Shown: piece after piece, positions 127 through 59,827 of the stretch | How the letters are laid out: each line of letters begins with the position of its first letter | Position numbering within the stretch: position 1 is the first letter of the stretch | NCBI GenBank assembly: GCA_902586925.1 | Contig: CACIJE010000001.1 | Coordinates: forward strand, 396,104-460,103 | Length of the DNA: 64,000 nucleotides | From: an uncultured SAR86 cluster bacterium | GTDB lineage: Bacteria; Pseudomonadota; Gammaproteobacteria; Magnimaribacterales; D2472 | Direction: 5' to 3' | Notes under the pieces: model-generated | Database searches by the model: none | Seen by the model: only the letters and a program-made list of their open reading frames with translations | What the model was told of the DNA's origin: nothing | Program-made: the position numbers and the translations under genes

Positions 127-144
127 TTATTCCACCGTCACTGA
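127..144 (-). repeat. R1, glmS-end repeat (TCA GTG ACG GTG GAA TAA = SVTVE*)
   Basis: Direct reading of the minus strand; matches the glmS C-terminal codons. Confidence 0.85.
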
Positions 145-168
145 TTAAGTTTAAATAATAATTTAATT

Positions 169-366
169 TCATTTTACAAAAGGGTCATCTTCATCTTTCA
201 ACTTTCCTGTGCCTTTCAGATAAAAGTAATATGTTAGTACACCGAACATTAAAACAAGGAAAAGGTCTCCATTTAATTTGATAAATTGATACAGAGAAAG
301 AAGTGTAAATAATAAACTTAGTATCCAAAAATGTCTGCCATATTTTGCTAAAAAATTTTTAATCAC
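169..366 (-). CDS. Small two-TM membrane protein (cassette gene, 65 aa, GTG start)
   Basis: ORF track; lies between R1 and R2; two hydrophobic segments. Confidence 0.6.
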   Translation of the reverse strand: MIKNFLAKYGRHFWILSLLFTLLSLYQFIKLNGDLFLVLMFGVLTYYFYLKGTGKLKDEDDPFVK

Positions 367-375
367 TTTTTAAAA

Positions 376-393
376 CTACTCCACCGTCACTGA
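376..393 (-). repeat. R2, glmS-end repeat (AAG TCA GTG ACG GTG GAG TAG = KSVTVE*)
   Basis: Direct reading; the preceding AAG also matches the glmS K codon. Confidence 0.85.
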
Positions 394-419
394 CTTGAAT
401 AAAACAGTGATTTGATTTT

Positions 420-626
420 TTATTCATTATTTTTTAAAAGTTGATGTCTGTATATATAAAGACCAAACCAGACTGAAAATATAAAGATCTCAAGGGTTAC
501 CATCAAATTATAATTTTCAACAAAAAGAGGGACAATGATCATTGCCGGTATGCCAAAGAATATGCTTGATGTTGACCAAACAAATCTTTCACTTTTTTTA
601 AGATAGTTCTGTAACATTTCTTTCAT
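420..626 (-). CDS. Small two-TM membrane protein (cassette gene, 68 aa)
   Basis: ORF track; between R2 and R3; IVPLF motif shared with 1540-1764. Confidence 0.65.
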   Translation of the reverse strand: MKEMLQNYLKKSERFVWSTSSIFFGIPAMIIVPLFVENYNLMVTLEIFIFSVWFGLYIYRHQLLKNNE

Positions 627-645
627 CTTAAATCATTGTTTCCTT

Positions 646-663
646 CTACTCCACCGCTACTAA
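646..663 (-). repeat. R3, degenerate glmS-end repeat (TTA GTA GCG GTG GAG TAG = LVAVE*)
   Basis: Direct reading; GGTGGAGTAG core retained, left half diverged. Confidence 0.65.
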
Positions 664-669
664 GTGTTT

Positions 670-1209
670 TTAATTAGCCACTAATTTTCTCATTTGTTTA
701 ACAAATAGTTTTTTACCTAAGGAAATGTTTTCAATCCAGTCCTCATTCGCACCAGCATCTGCATTGTCAGAGATATATTTAAAACATTTAAACTTGACAT
801 CTTCGATATAACAAATTTTCGCGATGGCGTATGCCTCCATGTCAACCAGGTCAGTTTTTAATTTTGGAGTTTGTGTAACAAAGGAGTCTCCTGTACCACA
901 ACTATATCCACCGCTTCCAAAATTTATTTCTCCAATATCATCAAACGGAGTTTGACCAATATTAAAACCTATCGGCGTAGAATCCATATCTCTTTGAAAA
1001 AATCGAGTTACTTCTACTAAACCTTTCAATTCTTTATTTAAACTACCAGCAGTTCCATAATTAATTATTAAAGATGGATTATAATCATTTATGATTTTCA
1101 ATGTTTTAATTGCAGCATTTATCTTACCAACACCTGTATAATGAATCTGGAAATCTGGTAAGTCTTTTTCATCAAGTTCCTCTTTTACGGCAACAAGAAC
1201 AAGGTTCAT
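670..1209 (-). CDS. Short PNP_UDP-type nucleosidase/phosphorylase (cassette gene)
   Basis: Motifs GVGKINAA, NYGTAGSL, DLVDMEAYAIAK, ISDNADAGA; 179 aa. Confidence 0.65.
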   Translation of the reverse strand: MNLVLVAVKEELDEKDLPDFQIHYTGVGKINAAIKTLKIINDYNPSLIINYGTAGSLNKELKGLVEVTRFFQRDMDSTPIGFNIGQTPFDDIGEINFGSGGYSCGTGDSFVTQTPKLKTDLVDMEAYAIAKICYIEDVKFKCFKYISDNADAGANEDWIENISLGKKLFVKQMRKLVAN

Positions 1210-1257
1210 ATTATTTTACCTTCTAAAATTCTTGTATGATAAATTAACACTCTTCGG

Positions 1258-1275
1258 CTACTCCACGGTGGTTGA
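1258..1275 (-). repeat. R4, degenerate glmS-end repeat (TCA ACC ACC GTG GAG TAG = STTVE*)
   Basis: Direct reading; one residue differs from SVTVE. Confidence 0.65.
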
Positions 1276-1299
1276 GTGGTTTTGTATGTAATAGTTTTT

Positions 1300-1473
1300 C
1301 TAGTTTTCACTTTTTTTGGAAATATGAGAGTAAGTTAAAATCCACACAAGTGTGTAAAGGGGAAGAACATAATCTAATCTTACCTCTCCAAGAAATATAT
1401 CCATGGGTATTAACAATAAAACTAAAAGAATTTGAATTATTAGAAGAGTTTTAATTGAAAGATTGAGTTTCAT
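1300..1473 (-). CDS. Small hydrophobic membrane protein, 57 aa (MKLNLSIKTLLIIQILLVLLLIPMDIFLGEVRLDYVLPLYTLVWILTYSHISKKSEN); absent from ORF track
   Basis: Manual translation; AAAGGA Shine-Dalgarno-like sequence upstream of ATG; between R4 and R5. Confidence 0.6.
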   Translation of the reverse strand: MKLNLSIKTLLIIQILLVLLLIPMDIFLGEVRLDYVLPLYTLVWILTYSHISKKSEN

Positions 1474-1502
1474 ATTTATTCCTTTAACTGTTACTTACAA
1501 AC

Positions 1503-1520
1503 TTACTCCACCGTAACAGA
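1503..1520 (-). repeat. R5, glmS-end repeat (TCT GTT ACG GTG GAG TAA = SVTVE*)
   Basis: Direct reading. Confidence 0.8.
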
Positions 1521-1539
1521 GTATCAGTAGCAACATTAA

Positions 1540-1764
1540 TCATTTAAGTTTGCTTAAAAGTTTTTTCCTTAAGAAAAAATAATATGTTCCCCATATTACT
1601 AAAAACACCCATGGTAGTGTTTGTTTTGTTGTTTGGTCTTGAAAAAAAAGTGGAACTATAAAAACTAAAAATAAAAAAAAGAAGGTAGTTAAGTTTACTG
1701 TCCAAGGGAATGACCGAGACACCAAATAATCATTTTTAACAAACTTTTTTATTGCTTCTATCAT
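1540..1764 (-). CDS. Small two-TM membrane protein (cassette gene, 74 aa)
   Basis: ORF track; between R5 and R6; ATG 3 nt after the R6 stop codon. Confidence 0.65.
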   Translation of the reverse strand: MIEAIKKFVKNDYLVSRSFPWTVNLTTFFFLFLVFIVPLFFQDQTTKQTLPWVFLVIWGTYYFFLRKKLLSKLK

Positions 1765-1865
1765 TGTTTATTCGACGGTAACGGAGTAAGTTTAATCGGT
1801 CTTTTATTCTCCGCTATTTCTGCGGTGTTTGAAAAGTCTGAAATTTGCTCACTAAGATTGCTCAT
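1761..1865 (-). CDS. 34-aa ORF reading through R6 in another frame (MSNLSEQISDFSNTAEIAENKRPIKLTPLPSNKQ)
   Basis: Manual translation; may be a 5' gene remnant at a recombination junction. Confidence 0.3.
   Translation of the reverse strand: MSNLSEQISDFSNTAEIAENKRPIKLTPLPSNKQ
1768..1785 (-). repeat. R6, glmS-end repeat (TCC GTT ACC GTC GAA TAA = SVTVE*)
   Basis: Direct reading; synonymous codons differ from the other copies. Confidence 0.75.
1783..1804 (+). repeat. Left arm of a 22-bp perfect inverted repeat (GGAGTAAGTTTAATCGGTCTTT)
   Basis: Exact reverse complement at 3506-3527. Confidence 0.85.
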
Positions 1866-2007
1866 TATTATCTCTATTCTACCCAATAATTAGGTGAAAG
1901 TTACACGTTTTTGTCGTATAATTAATAGTGTAAATCAAGAAATAAATTCCTTATTTCAAGTTCAAATACATACGCCAATATACCTAATTTCGGGTATGTT
2001 ATTTATG

Positions 2008-2310
2008 GAGAAAACTATGGAACAAATCTATAGAAAAGAGTTTCCCCATGGCAGTCATTCTGTCTATGGCGAATATGGAATTAATAGAGACTTAGTTCTC
2101 AGTTCTTATCATTACGGTTCTGATGTTGAGGACTTCTGGGGTAATGATGAGTATGAATACTATCTCATTATCGAGAAAGATGATGTCCCTAAATTCCTTT
2201 TAGAGAGTCTAATCAAAGGATTCAATTCTGAGAAGAAATTTACCCTTCATGACTTAAAAGAAATGTGTGATAAAAAGGAAATCAAATATACAACAACTTC
2301 TTATGTCTAA
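2008..2310 (+). CDS. Hypothetical small acidic protein (cassette cargo)
   Basis: Part of ORF 1894-2310; ATG at 2008 is the more likely start. Confidence 0.5.
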   Translation, partial: EKTMEQIYRKEFPHGSHSVYGEYGINRDLVLSSYHYGSDVEDFWGNDEYEYYLIIEKDDVPKFLLESLIKGFNSEKKFTLHDLKEMCDKKEIKYTTTSYV

Positions 2311-2515
2311 TTATGAAATTAGAAATGATGATGATTTAAAACTTTGGTTTAGGATTAAATCCATTGAAAAGAAAATAGATAAACTTGGTCCGATGTACTC
2401 TAAAGGATTTGATTGGATAAAGTGGGAAAGTCTTGAAGAAGAATCAGCAATGTATGTTTCGCAATTATCTATTTATAAAAATGTTGTTCAAGAAGTACTT
2501 TCTAGATATGACTAA
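2306..2515 (+). CDS. Hypothetical protein, 69 aa (MSNYEIRNDDDLKLW...)
   Basis: Internal ATG of ORF 2267-2515, overlapping the end of the previous ORF. Confidence 0.45.
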   Translation, partial: SNYEIRNDDDLKLWFRIKSIEKKIDKLGPMYSKGFDWIKWESLEEESAMYVSQLSIYKNVVQEVLSRYD

Positions 2516-2928
2516 TTATCTTTAAAAAAATATTTACAAACGACTTCAAGGGCTATTTCTGAAACACTATCTGGCGGGGGGTATTGCCACTTTTCCTCAA
2601 AATCCAAACTGTGTAATATTTCTCCTTTCCCCATATTTTCAGAGTATATATTTCCAGATAGTGGAAGTTCTCTAAAGACATTACAATCTCCTTTGTAGTA
2701 AATCATTGAGGATTTATATACTCTTGAGTCTGAGTATTCTCTGAGTACTTTATAATCAGCTAATCTCCAGTAATAAATATATCCACCCGAATTCTTAATT
2801 GAATCGGTATCAATAAAGTTATCAGTCTCGTCATTAAAACTCACAAGATCCCAATTTGCAGACATTAGAGGGTTAATGTTTATTAATATCATTAAAGATA
2901 TTATTTTTTTCATATAAACATTTTTCAT
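2512..2928 (-). CDS. Exported protein resembling the surface-adhesin E family (tentative)
   Basis: Signal-like N-terminus; ANWDLVSFNDETDNFIDTDSIKNSGGYIYYWRLADY and paired Cys. Confidence 0.45.
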   Translation of the reverse strand: MKNVYMKKIISLMILININPLMSANWDLVSFNDETDNFIDTDSIKNSGGYIYYWRLADYKVLREYSDSRVYKSSMIYYKGDCNVFRELPLSGNIYSENMGKGEILHSLDFEEKWQYPPPDSVSEIALEVVCKYFFKDN

Positions 2929-2937
2929 ATCTCTATA

Positions 2938-3366
2938 TTACAACAATGGATCGGTCTTTCTGCATTGATAGTCCCAGCTTGTAACCTTATTTTTACTATC
3001 TTCACGAAAGTTATATCGGGTTATATTTACTTTTCCAGTTACAAAGTTGAACTTAATGTGATCTTCATAATCATCACCATCATTAATTGAATAAATTTCT
3101 TGTTCATCTTCTGAATAATATGTCCATCTTAATCTAGCGATTTCGATTTCTCTTTTTATTGTGTCCACATACAAAACAGATTCAACGTTAGGATCAAACT
3201 CATAATCAATACATACAAAATATTTTTTGTTATCAGAGGGTTTTGTGAGATTTGCTGTATCTTCACAACTTGTTAAGACAAACAGAAAGGATATTGCTAT
3301 AAGTATTGTTATTTTTTTCATAAAAATATTCTGCCACAACTCCTTGTAAATGTCCTTTAAACACAC
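2938..3366 (-). CDS. Hypothetical lipoprotein
   Basis: MKKITILIAISFLFVLTSC lipobox; the internal ATG is the likely start. Confidence 0.5.
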   Translation of the reverse strand: MCLKDIYKELWQNIFMKKITILIAISFLFVLTSCEDTANLTKPSDNKKYFVCIDYEFDPNVESVLYVDTIKREIEIARLRWTYYSEDEQEIYSINDGDDYEDHIKFNFVTGKVNITRYNFREDSKNKVTSWDYQCRKTDPLL

Positions 3367-3474
3367 ATAACAGATCGCAACAAGTCATATCAACCCCTTA
3401 TGACTTCCGCTAACACGAAAAAATAGGTGAAATTTTTAGGGTTATTTTTACCGGAGTTAATTTTTAGTGATTTT

Positions 3475-3500
3475 TAAAACCCCCGCAGAATGCGGGATTA
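3475..3500 (-). terminator. Rho-independent-like hairpin downstream of R7
   Basis: Minus strand CCCGCA-TTC-TGCGGG followed by GGTTTT. Confidence 0.5.
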
Positions 3501-3505
3501 AAATG

Positions 3506-3527
3506 AAAGACCGATTAAACTTACTCC
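3506..3527 (-). repeat. Right arm of the 22-bp perfect inverted repeat
   Basis: AAAGACCGATTAAACTTACTCC = reverse complement of 1783-1804; ends inside R7. Confidence 0.85.
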
Positions 3528-3538
3528 ACAGTCACTGA
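3521..3538 (-). repeat. R7, glmS-end repeat (TCA GTG ACT GTG GAG TAA = SVTVE*)
   Basis: Direct reading; upstream about 30 bp also resembles R1 and R2. Confidence 0.85.
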
Positions 3539-3564
3539 TTAAGTTTAAACAGTGATTTAATTTT

Positions 3565-3819
3565 TTATCCATAATTGTCTGAAAAATATTTTTCTCTATC
3601 TTCTTTATTCATGCCAACTGTTTCGTTCATAAAATTGTTTCTATCTTCTCTAGATTTAAAGACCCAAATGCAAACTGTATCATGTGAATGATAAATTGCT
3701 TTTAACTCGTCATCTATTTCACAAATTTCTTTTGGTATTTCTGTTTTAATACAAATCATGACACAAATCTTAACTTTCTGTGTATCAATGTAAACAAACC
3801 TGCTCCAATTATAGTCCAT
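3565..3819 (-). CDS. Hypothetical small protein; start probably internal (MICIKTEIPKE...)
   Basis: ORF track; 5' part overlaps the upstream ORF. Confidence 0.45.
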   Translation of the reverse strand: MDYNWSRFVYIDTQKVKICVMICIKTEIPKEICEIDDELKAIYHSHDTVCIWVFKSREDRNNFMNETVGMNKEDREKYFSDNYG

Positions 3820-4142
3820 AGAATATCATTCCAATCGAAGACACCTCTTCCAGGTGTAAAAATTGTAATGAACTCATTGGCAATTAATCCTGAAATGGAG
3901 ATTCCTACTGACCAATAGAGTCGATTTTTAAATAAAGATGAATTAGGTTTGGATACTTCTGGAATCACTACATATAACAGAGCAGGCAACCCAATTCCTG
4001 GTAAGAAATTTGGAGCAACCCCAAGAAGATAAATTATTATTCCGTTAGCGCCATCATAATTTGGTCTTATGTAATCCTGGACTATAGAAAAAAGCAAAAA
4101 ACAAATAGCAAAAATAATGTAATAAATAAACTTTCTATTCAT
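3756..4142 (-). CDS. Small multi-TM membrane protein (VanZ-like? tentative)
   Basis: ORF track; ATG at 4142 preferred over TTG at 4172; several hydrophobic segments. Confidence 0.5.
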   Translation of the reverse strand: MNRKFIYYIIFAICFLLFSIVQDYIRPNYDGANGIIIYLLGVAPNFLPGIGLPALLYVVIPEVSKPNSSLFKNRLYWSVGISISGLIANEFITIFTPGRGVFDWNDILWTIIGAGLFTLIHRKLRFVS

Positions 4143-4183
4143 TTTGTTTGTTTCAATTATTTGCTCAACCAAGAAATATTTCT

Positions 4184-4201
4184 TTATTCAACAGTGACTG
4201 A
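4184..4201 (-). repeat. R8, native glmS terminus (TCA GTC ACT GTT GAA TAA)
   Basis: In frame with the glmS ORF ...QPRNLAKSVTVE*. Confidence 0.95.
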
Positions 4202-6010
4202 CTTTGCTAGATTTCTAGGCTGATCGATATCAGTACCTCTCAAAAGGGCCACTTCATAAGATAATATTTGTAACGGTATAGTGTAAATAATTGGAGTCAA
4301 CAAGAAGTCACACTTTGGCATTTTTATCAGCTTTCCTGACTTTACATCCATAGAAATAGTAGGATCTGAAAATACATAAAGCGTCCCTCCTCTTGCCTTT
4401 ACCTCTTCAAGATTTGATATAAGTTTTTCTGCGATTTCACTCTCCGGTGCTAGTGCAATGACAGGCATGTTTTCGTCAATCAGGGCAAGAGGGCCATGTT
4501 TTAACTCTCCAGCCGGGTATGCTTCTGCATGTATATATGAAATTTCTTTAAGCTTCAGAGCTCCTTCTTTTGCAATTGGATAAAAAATGCCTCTTCCTAG
4601 AAACAAGGCATTGTCTTTGCTAGCAACTTCTGGAGCTAATTCTATAATTGTTTCTTTAAGTTTTAATGTTTCTTCAATAATATCTGGCAAAGATCTTAAT
4701 GCCGTAACAACTCTTGTTCTGAGTTTTGGATTCTTTTTTCTACCTTTTGCTATAGAAAGAGCTAGTAACATTAATGCTGCAAGTTGTGTTGTAAAAGCCT
4801 TAGTTGATGCGACTCCTATTTCAGGGCCTGCATTAGTAAATATTGAATAATCAGATTCTCTTGCAAGAGAACTAGTAGGAACATTGCAAATACATAGTGA
4901 AGATAAATAATCTTTTTCTTTTGCATATCTGAGAGCTGCTAGAGTATCTGCAGTTTCACCTGATTGAGAAATTGTTACAAACAAAGAGTCCTCATCAACA
5001 TGAGGATTTCTGTATCTATACTCAGATGCATAATCTATTTGAGTTGGGAGCTCTGATATTGATGAAAACCAGTTTGCTGCAACTCTTCCTGCGTGGAGAC
5101 TTGTCCCACAAGCTACAATTTGTATCCTTTTAACTCTTTCAAACATTTCTGATGATCCAAGTCCAAAAATATTCTCTAAAATATCATCGCCTCCAACTCT
5201 TCCATCAATAGTGTTTAATATAGCCTCGGGCTGTTCATAAATTTCTTTCTCCATAAAATGCTTATATTCACCCTTCGAAGTCGCTTGACTTGAAATATCT
5301 ATTTTAGAAATTTCTCTCTCAACTTTTTTTTTATTAATGTCATAAATCGAATAGCTATCTGAGGACAATTCAGCGACATCACCGTCTTCCAGAAATATAA
5401 ATTCATTGGTTAGTTGTCCCAGAGCAAGCGGGTCTGAAGCTGCTAAAAGCTCTTCTATACCTATTCCAATCAACAGTGGTGATTTATTTCTGGCAACTAT
5501 AATATTTTGATCATCTTCTAAATCTATGGCTGCGATAGCGTATGCACCATCAAGTCTATCTTTTGTTAAGTACATCGAATCTAACATGGAGTTTCCTTGA
5601 TTTAAAAAGTAATCAAGCATGTGAGCAATTAGTTCTGAGTCAGTTTGAGATAAAAATGAGTAGTTCTTTTTTTTTAGAAAATCTTTTAAATCTAAGTAGT
5701 TTTCAATTATTCCGTTATGAACAATATATACCCTTTCATTCGATTTGTGAGGATGTGCATTTTCTTCAGAGGGCTCACCATGAGTTGCCCATCTTGTATG
5801 TGCAATACCAAGTTTACTCTTTGGTTTCTCTTGAATCATCTTTTCTTCAAGTAATTTAACTTTACCCAAAGTTCTTAAATGAGCAATCTGATCTTTTTGA
5901 TGTAATGCAATGCCTGCTGAGTCATATCCTCGATACTCCATTTTATGAAGTCCTTGAACAAGGAGCTTTCCTACGTTTCGGTTAGAAGCTGCAGCTATAA
6001 TTCCACACAT
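4184..6010 (-). CDS. glmS: Glutamine--fructose-6-phosphate aminotransferase
   Basis: MCGIIAAAS N-terminus, SIS domains, QPRNLAKSVTVE C-terminus. Confidence 0.97.
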   Translation of the reverse strand: MCGIIAAASNRNVGKLLVQGLHKMEYRGYDSAGIALHQKDQIAHLRTLGKVKLLEEKMIQEKPKSKLGIAHTRWATHGEPSEENAHPHKSNERVYIVHNGIIENYLDLKDFLKKKNYSFLSQTDSELIAHMLDYFLNQGNSMLDSMYLTKDRLDGAYAIAAIDLEDDQNIIVARNKSPLLIGIGIEELLAASDPLALGQLTNEFIFLEDGDVAELSSDSYSIYDINKKKVEREISKIDISSQATSKGEYKHFMEKEIYEQPEAILNTIDGRVGGDDILENIFGLGSSEMFERVKRIQIVACGTSLHAGRVAANWFSSISELPTQIDYASEYRYRNPHVDEDSLFVTISQSGETADTLAALRYAKEKDYLSSLCICNVPTSSLARESDYSIFTNAGPEIGVASTKAFTTQLAALMLLALSIAKGRKKNPKLRTRVVTALRSLPDIIEETLKLKETIIELAPEVASKDNALFLGRGIFYPIAKEGALKLKEISYIHAEAYPAGELKHGPLALIDENMPVIALAPESEIAEKLISNLEEVKARGGTLYVFSDPTISMDVKSGKLIKMPKCDFLLTPIIYTIPLQILSYEVALLRGTDIDQPRNLAKSVTVE

Positions 6011-58915: not shown

Positions 58916-59827
58916 TTAAATATTTTCTAATTTATTTTTTGCACGAGGATGAGATTTATCATAAATTTTTACTAAATGCTGATAATCCAATTTTGTATAT
59001 ATTTGTGTAGTTGATAAAGAACTGTGACCCAAAAGCTCTTGAATTGTTCTCAAGTCACCACTAGATTCCAGCATATGGGTTGCGAAACTATGTCTAAGCA
59101 TATGAGGATGAATAGGAGGTAAACCTTGTTTAGTCGCCATTTTTTTAAGCCTTAACTGGACACTTCTGATTGATAATCTGCCACCTTTAGAATTTAAAAA
59201 AAGAGCATCGGTATTATTCTGAATCTTCTCTCTTTCAATAAGCCAATTATTGATCGCTTTTACTGCAAATCTTCCTATTGGAACCAACCTAGCCTTTGCA
59301 CCTTTACCAATTACTTTCAAAAAAGTTTTATTTTCTTCAAAGTCACTGATATTTATATTAACTGTTTCAGAAACTCTCAATCCAGAAGAATACATAACTT
59401 CCACAATTGCCATATCTCTTATCTCAATCAAATTACTTGGTTTAAAATTTAAAAGTTGTTCTACATCCTCTGGTGATAGAACATCAGGAAGGACGCTTGA
59501 CGACTTTGGACCAGAAACTAATTCAAAAGGAGATGAATCAATTAAACCATTTTTTTTAAGAAATCTAAAAAAACCTTTTGCTGAAGATAAATGTCTTTGA
59601 ATACTCCGCGGACTATTGCTATTTGTATAAAGGTCGCCAATCCATGCAGAACAAATTTCATCTTTAATTTCGAAGTAGTTTGTAATATTTAAATTTTCTA
59701 AAAATAAATATAATTTTTTTAGATCTCTTTCATATGATAATGCAGTATTTTTTGAAAGATTTTTTACTTGAGAAACATATATTAAATATTCTTTAATATC
59801 TTTAAGAATAATCGGAGTATTCTTCAT
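58916..59827 (-). CDS. xerC: Tyrosine recombinase XerC
   Basis: [30 protein letters not shown]; dapF-DUF484-xerC-yigB order. Confidence 0.93.

Follow-up and report, generated by a model that had tools for sequence, protein, structure and literature searches.

SAR86 is an abundant lineage of the surface ocean with a streamlined genome, and we know of no cultured strain. In one genome of this cluster (1.18 Mb, G000) an array of small ORFs lies downstream of glmS, the ORFs being spaced by ~20-bp repeats of the glmS 3' end, and four of them encode tiny hydrophobic proteins that the initial annotation regarded as one protein type captured again and again. The locus raises the question of whether the four are indeed one family, and of how such genes come to stand at the end of glmS. 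If an essential gene has at its end a dedicated site where single genes, in units down to 250 bp, are gained and lost, this would account for some of the strain variation of SAR86. The reading we favour, with a little better than even confidence, is that of single-gene mobile cassettes at the 3' end of SAR86 glmS, integron-like in their organisation, which deliver small membrane hairpins, perhaps for defence against phages or competitors.

The glmS array

The stretch of DNA analysed, here called the window, comprises 64,000 nucleotides of contig 1 of this genome, from 396104 to 460103. The features of the array are given below, with core sites scored by a position weight matrix (PWM) and the four small proteins lettered A to D.

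127..144, minus strand: 18-bp core site TCAGTGACGGTGGAATAA, PWM score 36
136..385, minus strand: cassette encoding protein A (169-366, 65 aa, GTG start inside the 5' arm, AAAGTGATT)
376..393, minus strand: 18-bp core site TCAGTGACGGTGGAGTAG, PWM score 39.7
385..655, minus strand: cassette encoding protein B (420-626, 68 aa)
646..663, minus strand: 18-bp core site, degenerate, TTAGTAGCGGTGGAGTAG, PWM score 29.5
655..1267, minus strand: cassette with a nucleosidase/phosphorylase-family protein of 179 aa (670-1209)
1258..1275, minus strand: 18-bp core site, degenerate, PWM score 17.9
1267..1512, minus strand: cassette encoding protein C (1300-1473, 57 aa), arms TTTGTAAGTAACAGTT and TTTTGTATGTAATAGTT, arm score 22
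1503..1520, minus strand: 18-bp core site TCTGTTACGGTGGAGTAA, PWM score 30.9
1512..1777, minus strand: cassette encoding protein D (1540-1764, 74 aa), a homologue of B
1768..1785, minus strand: 18-bp core site TCCGTTACCGTCGAATAA, PWM score 21.7
1777..3530, minus strand: larger cassette, its glmS-proximal end carrying the GC-rich hairpin CCCGCATTCTGCGGG
1894-2310 and 2267-2515: opposite-strand ORFs inside cassette 1777..3530
2512-2928: Adhesin_E-like protein inside cassette 1777..3530
2938-3366: possible lipoprotein inside cassette 1777..3530
3521..3538, minus strand: 18-bp core site TCAGTGACTGTGGAGTAA, PWM score 35.1
3530..4193, minus strand: glmS-proximal cassette, holding ORFs 3756-4172 and 3565-3819
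4184..6010, minus strand: glmS, whose last codons S-V-T-V-E-stop form the attachment core TCAGTCACTGTTGAATAA

The four small ORFs were recovered on the minus strand as first annotated, and each is the sole cargo of a cassette of ~245-270 bp flanked by 18-bp repeats of the glmS 3' end. The B cassette (~270 bp) is also found, with the same boundaries, at three other loci (L048, L054 and L057). For A and D the 5' arm of the cassette includes the start codon, the ATG of D lying in this arm 3 nt past the glmS-type stop. The 179-aa protein matches Pfam PNP_UDP_1 (E 8e-17) and the NCBIfam nucleosidase model NF004168 (E 7e-27, below the cut-off of that model), and the cassette at 1777..3530 has inverted arms of 26 nt that are 96% complementary. 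In the glmS-proximal cassette, ORF 3756-4172 encodes a 138-aa membrane protein with a weak VanZ-like match, and ORF 3565-3819 encodes a protein with the core MICIKTEIPKE that recurs in many arrays. This last protein, of ~64 aa (MICIKTEIPKEICEIDDELKAIYHS...; also at L049, L062, L077 and others), was seen in the arrays of 9 genomes, and in several of its cassettes a GTG start lies inside the cassette arm.

GlmS was found in 104 of the 107 genomes of the same family, and the sequence past glmS differs between nearly all of the genomes compared. Sixty loci, that of G000 among them, provided usable regions downstream of glmS, and in these a weight-matrix search detected 267 core sites against ~0.3 in shuffled sequence, with only 5 on the opposite strand. 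These sites delimit 206 closed cassettes with a median length of 610 bp, some of which are without any ORF, and the same cassette can be found beside different neighbours in different genomes. Outside the SAR86 order most of the Gammaproteobacteria sampled have the exact pattern TCNGTNACNGTNGARTAR, usually in the single copy expected for glmS itself; within the order it forms clusters of up to 6, including in other families (for example those of G431 and G447). The literature searched yielded no account of cassette arrays linked to glmS in SAR86.

In 177 of 200 cassettes the longest ORF has the orientation of glmS; in 51 of these 177 it starts no more than 20 nt from the glmS-type stop. As the genes are on the glmS strand, many of them a few bases past a GlmS-type stop, they are probably read together with glmS, and this close spacing suggests expression from the promoter of the platform gene. 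A GC-rich hairpin (CCCGCATTCTGCGGGGGTT) was observed directly after the glmS-proximal arm at window 3480-3530 and at the starts of ~15 other cassettes; hairpins of this class look like intrinsic terminators, which would block read-through from glmS.

Cassette boundaries and the crossover point

The junctions between cassettes are 18-bp copies of the last codons of glmS, and each cassette is laid out as NGTNGARTAR (encoding the V-E-stop of GlmS), a 5' arm, the gene, a complementary 3' arm and then TCNGTNAC. The boundaries were mapped with 74 pairs of cassettes that carry the same cargo at nearly the same length in different genomes. Identity above control extends to -13 at the downstream site and is found from about -7 at the upstream site, and as it ends at the one and resumes at the other the recombination point is inside ACNGT, within the Thr-Val codons of GlmS.

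The inverted-repeat arms vary across cassettes and are matched inside each one: an arm complementarity score of at least 18 was reached by 48.5% of arm pairs within cassettes, while for pairs taken from different cassettes the figure was 7.5% and for pairs across junctions 6.4% (p 2e-33). Cassettes recombine as discrete units. We propose that site-specific recombination inside ACNGT would place a new cassette beside glmS and that the incoming cassette would restore the C-terminus of GlmS by bringing its own V-E-stop; older cassettes would be pushed away from glmS, if growth proceeds in the direction that we infer, and the cassette genes would be co-expressed with it.

Relationship of the four proteins

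The likeness of 420-626 and 1540-1764, which share IVPLF and W..Y..R..LL, had been pointed out from the sequence and is homology, with an hhalign probability of 95.8% (E 7.9e-9) and a score of 45.6, where 200 column shuffles that preserved hydropathy reached at most 23.7. Furthermore, single-pass phmmer searches between B and D mostly gave E-values of 2e-4 to 4e-3 in both directions, the members of the other group ranking right after the query's own. Iterated hmmsearch was left out of the assessment of relatedness because it drew hydrophobic ORFs that overlap out of frame (such as L038:2020-2206) into the D family. The second likeness that had been put forward, a shared N[FY]LxKxxRxxW in 169-366 and 420-626, is attributable to chance (hhalign probability 0.3%).

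Profile comparison showed no relation of A to B or to D, nor of C to A, B or D, and C had no homologue in the 107 related genomes and is an orphan. At the sequence level there are three unrelated groups, B/D, A and C. The proposal of a single protein type must be given up, as only B and D are homologous and the rest share architecture and not ancestry; one family for all four was ruled out by profile comparison with the shuffle control. The initial annotation had named as grounds for doubt that the four might be unrelated, which turned out to be partly true, and that glmS-linked homologues might be lacking, which is false, such homologues being present in other genomes.

Two transmembrane helices had been read from all four sequences. 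This is borne out by AlphaFold2 for A and D, each predicted as an N-terminal helix followed by a helical hairpin (pLDDT 86 for A, and 83 for D modelled with the B/D alignment), and by hydropathy only for B and C. The four proteins are probably all small membrane hairpins, with both ends cytoplasmic as judged by inspection of charge. The A family is marked by the motifs KYG[RK]HFW before the first helix and TGxLxxxDPF after the second.

Distribution of the A and B/D families

The A family occurs in 13 and the B/D family in 15 of the 107 SAR86-family genomes, and in these genomes strong matches to either are confined to regions downstream of glmS or to contigs with core sites. A wider set of 321 genomes from across the class gave only partial, chance-level matches to B/D. 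No relatives of A, B/D or C were found in viral contigs, none of A and D in phage records and none of B in plasmid records. Within the collections searched A and B/D are lineage-restricted. Four weaker relatives of A were also noticed (L123-L126, in G022, G015, G024 and G041), near which no core site was detected; two of the four have an internal stop, and they may be decayed insertions elsewhere in the genome.

Selection and the nature of the cargo

Ratios of dN/dS were 0.14-0.25 for A, 0.09-1.0 for B and 0.5-1.3 for D. The coding of A is thus supported by purifying selection, as is that of B for the most part and that of D weakly, and the selection on the cargo that had been suspected is shown for A and mostly for B; the values for D would mean that its function is weakly constrained or changing. 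The coding of C is backed solely by its fit to the cassette arms.

The recurrence of small hydrophobic cargo, which failed for a single family, stands for the class. Among the 74 cassette ORFs on the glmS strand that encode 50-100 aa, a TM-like stretch was found in 66%; in shuffled DNA of these loci, 21% of chance ORFs had one. There are 45 recurrent cargo families, present in at least 2 genomes, of which 18 are of at most 100 aa, and 14 of these 18 have at least one TM segment. Inspection of the sequences by eye suggested sulfotransferase-like, MORN-repeat-like, DUF805-like and HNH-like proteins among the other cargo.

Candidate functions

None of the four proteins had a significant match in Pfam, PHROGs, PADLOC or NCBIfam, and they match no known defence or superinfection-exclusion family in these collections; Foldseek returned no significant structural neighbour in the PDB. 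They may be strain-variable membrane accessory proteins that are rapidly gained and lost, and one possible use, to which we give well under even confidence, would be to alter the response of the cell to phages or competitors in the manner of superinfection-exclusion or immunity proteins. By analogy with the antiphage integron cassettes of V. cholerae, where 16 of 179 cassettes (~10%) are antiphage (PMC12409362), phage defence would seem the most likely single use, with a role as regulators nearly as likely; in V. parahaemolyticus 9 of 57 tested cassettes were antiphage (PMC12409362). The arrays provide a defined set of small membrane proteins on which such uses can be tested.

In the regulatory role these small proteins would modulate housekeeping complexes of the membrane (transporters, or complexes of respiration or envelope stress), and would have been captured for the tuning of physiology and not for defence. 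We regard this as a tentative alternative, for which the conserved flanking motifs of A speak, being under purifying selection as would be expected of a protein with a specific partner. Bacterial small membrane proteins are, moreover, regulators in many cases (PMC11539335); however, the patchy occurrence in 13-15 of 107 genomes is more what one would expect of an accessory than of a housekeeping trait, and the proteins are not known to have a conserved partner. The size and hydrophobicity of the proteins, their one-gene cassettes and the fast evolution of D-type proteins would also fit membrane-active toxins or holin-like peptides, which would stabilise the cassettes or kill the cell on infection, as in toxin-antitoxin systems or abortive infection. 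It would seem unlikely that this is the case, as cassettes of ~250 bp hold no antitoxin gene and the conserved soluble motifs of A are atypical of lytic peptides.

Finally, some of the ORFs (C, perhaps D) may be non-functional, that is, chance hydrophobic ORFs in AT-rich cassettes that are selected for their recombination ends only. The frequency of TM-like stretches among chance ORFs of this size, the lack of a homologue of C and the occurrence of ORF-less cassettes are all in keeping with this, as is codon usage, the scores of which did not separate these short ORFs from chance ORFs, the test being too weak at such length. Nevertheless dN/dS is well below 1 for A and most pairs of B, the reading frame of B/D and A is kept across many genomes and all four ORFs have start and stop codons that fit the arms, and we consider this explanation the most improbable of those discussed here. 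Defence, with the reservations given, is the use that we prefer.

Comparison with known systems

Of the systems described in the literature, integrons and additive islands that repeat tRNA ends come closest (PMC11014356, PMC10872708). As in sedentary chromosomal integrons (IntI/attI/attC), the SAR86 cassettes are small, tandem, mostly single-gene and on the same strand, with short recombination sites, cassette-specific inverted arms and variable orphan cargo. Unlike integrons, the array is without an integron integrase, the crossover falls in ACNGT of the glmS-coding core and not at G^TTRRRY as in attC, and an essential gene serves as platform through its 3' end, its last codons being restored by every cassette. 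Additive flexible genomic islands, such as tycheposons and those at the tRNA-Lys of Ca. Methylopumilus, where the last 20 nt of tRNA-Lys are repeated (PMC10872708), likewise arise where a conserved gene receives successive insertions at its 3' end, and repeat that end, whereas the SAR86 target is the protein-coding glmS, most units are 0.2-2 kb and no integrase was seen in the array. The array therefore resembles both integrons and additive islands and lacks what defines an integron, namely the integrase and the attC crossover.

The glmS 3' end is also the landmark of attTn7, used by Tn7 and Tn7-like elements. Tn7 inserts downstream of glmS and does not replace glmS codons, whilst the SAR86 recombination point is inside the glmS coding sequence. 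Small superinfection-exclusion and immunity proteins of membranes, such as Imm of T4, are of the same size class and membrane-hairpin architecture, although no relationship of sequence or fold was detected between them and the SAR86 proteins. It is conceivable, although we would put it forward only as a doubtful extension, that the arrays represent an order-wide gene-capture system of SAR86 with the last codons of glmS as attachment core, in which cassettes with their own complementary arms would be moved in trans, without an integron integrase and with crossover in ACNGT, and that the system would serve as a common pool of small membrane proteins, mostly orphans, for defence against phages or competitors.

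Recombinases in the array-bearing genomes

The arrays raise a clean biochemical question, that of the enzyme cutting at ACNGT of the glmS end. No integron integrase (IntI-type tyrosine recombinase) was found in the 107 genomes. In most of them, G000 included, there are two matches to PF00589, which we read as XerC and XerD, and none of the matches listed lies inside a glmS array. One of the two Xer-type genes of G000 is at window 58916-59827, ~53 kb from glmS, a spacing that is similar in several relatives.

A serine recombinase was rejected as the general mover, a resolvase-domain gene being present in only 2 of 16 array-bearing genomes. An IS110-type DEDD transposase was detected in 0 of 16 genomes, while 4 controls matched, and TniQ had no match in the 16 genomes, the control set likewise being without a match. 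Among the tyrosine, serine and IS110 types searched, XerC and XerD are the only recombinases generally present.

Two further observations concern serine recombinases. G000 encodes a 525-aa large serine recombinase (L135, G000:C1:250674-251117) ~145 kb from glmS, at a locus in which there are no core sites, and the gene is also present in G088. Furthermore, in L092 (oriented 0-2003) and in two other genomes there is a small protein that by eye resembles the Recombinase domain of large serine recombinases (GLGYRKISNKLNSWGISTPRGKKWFN).
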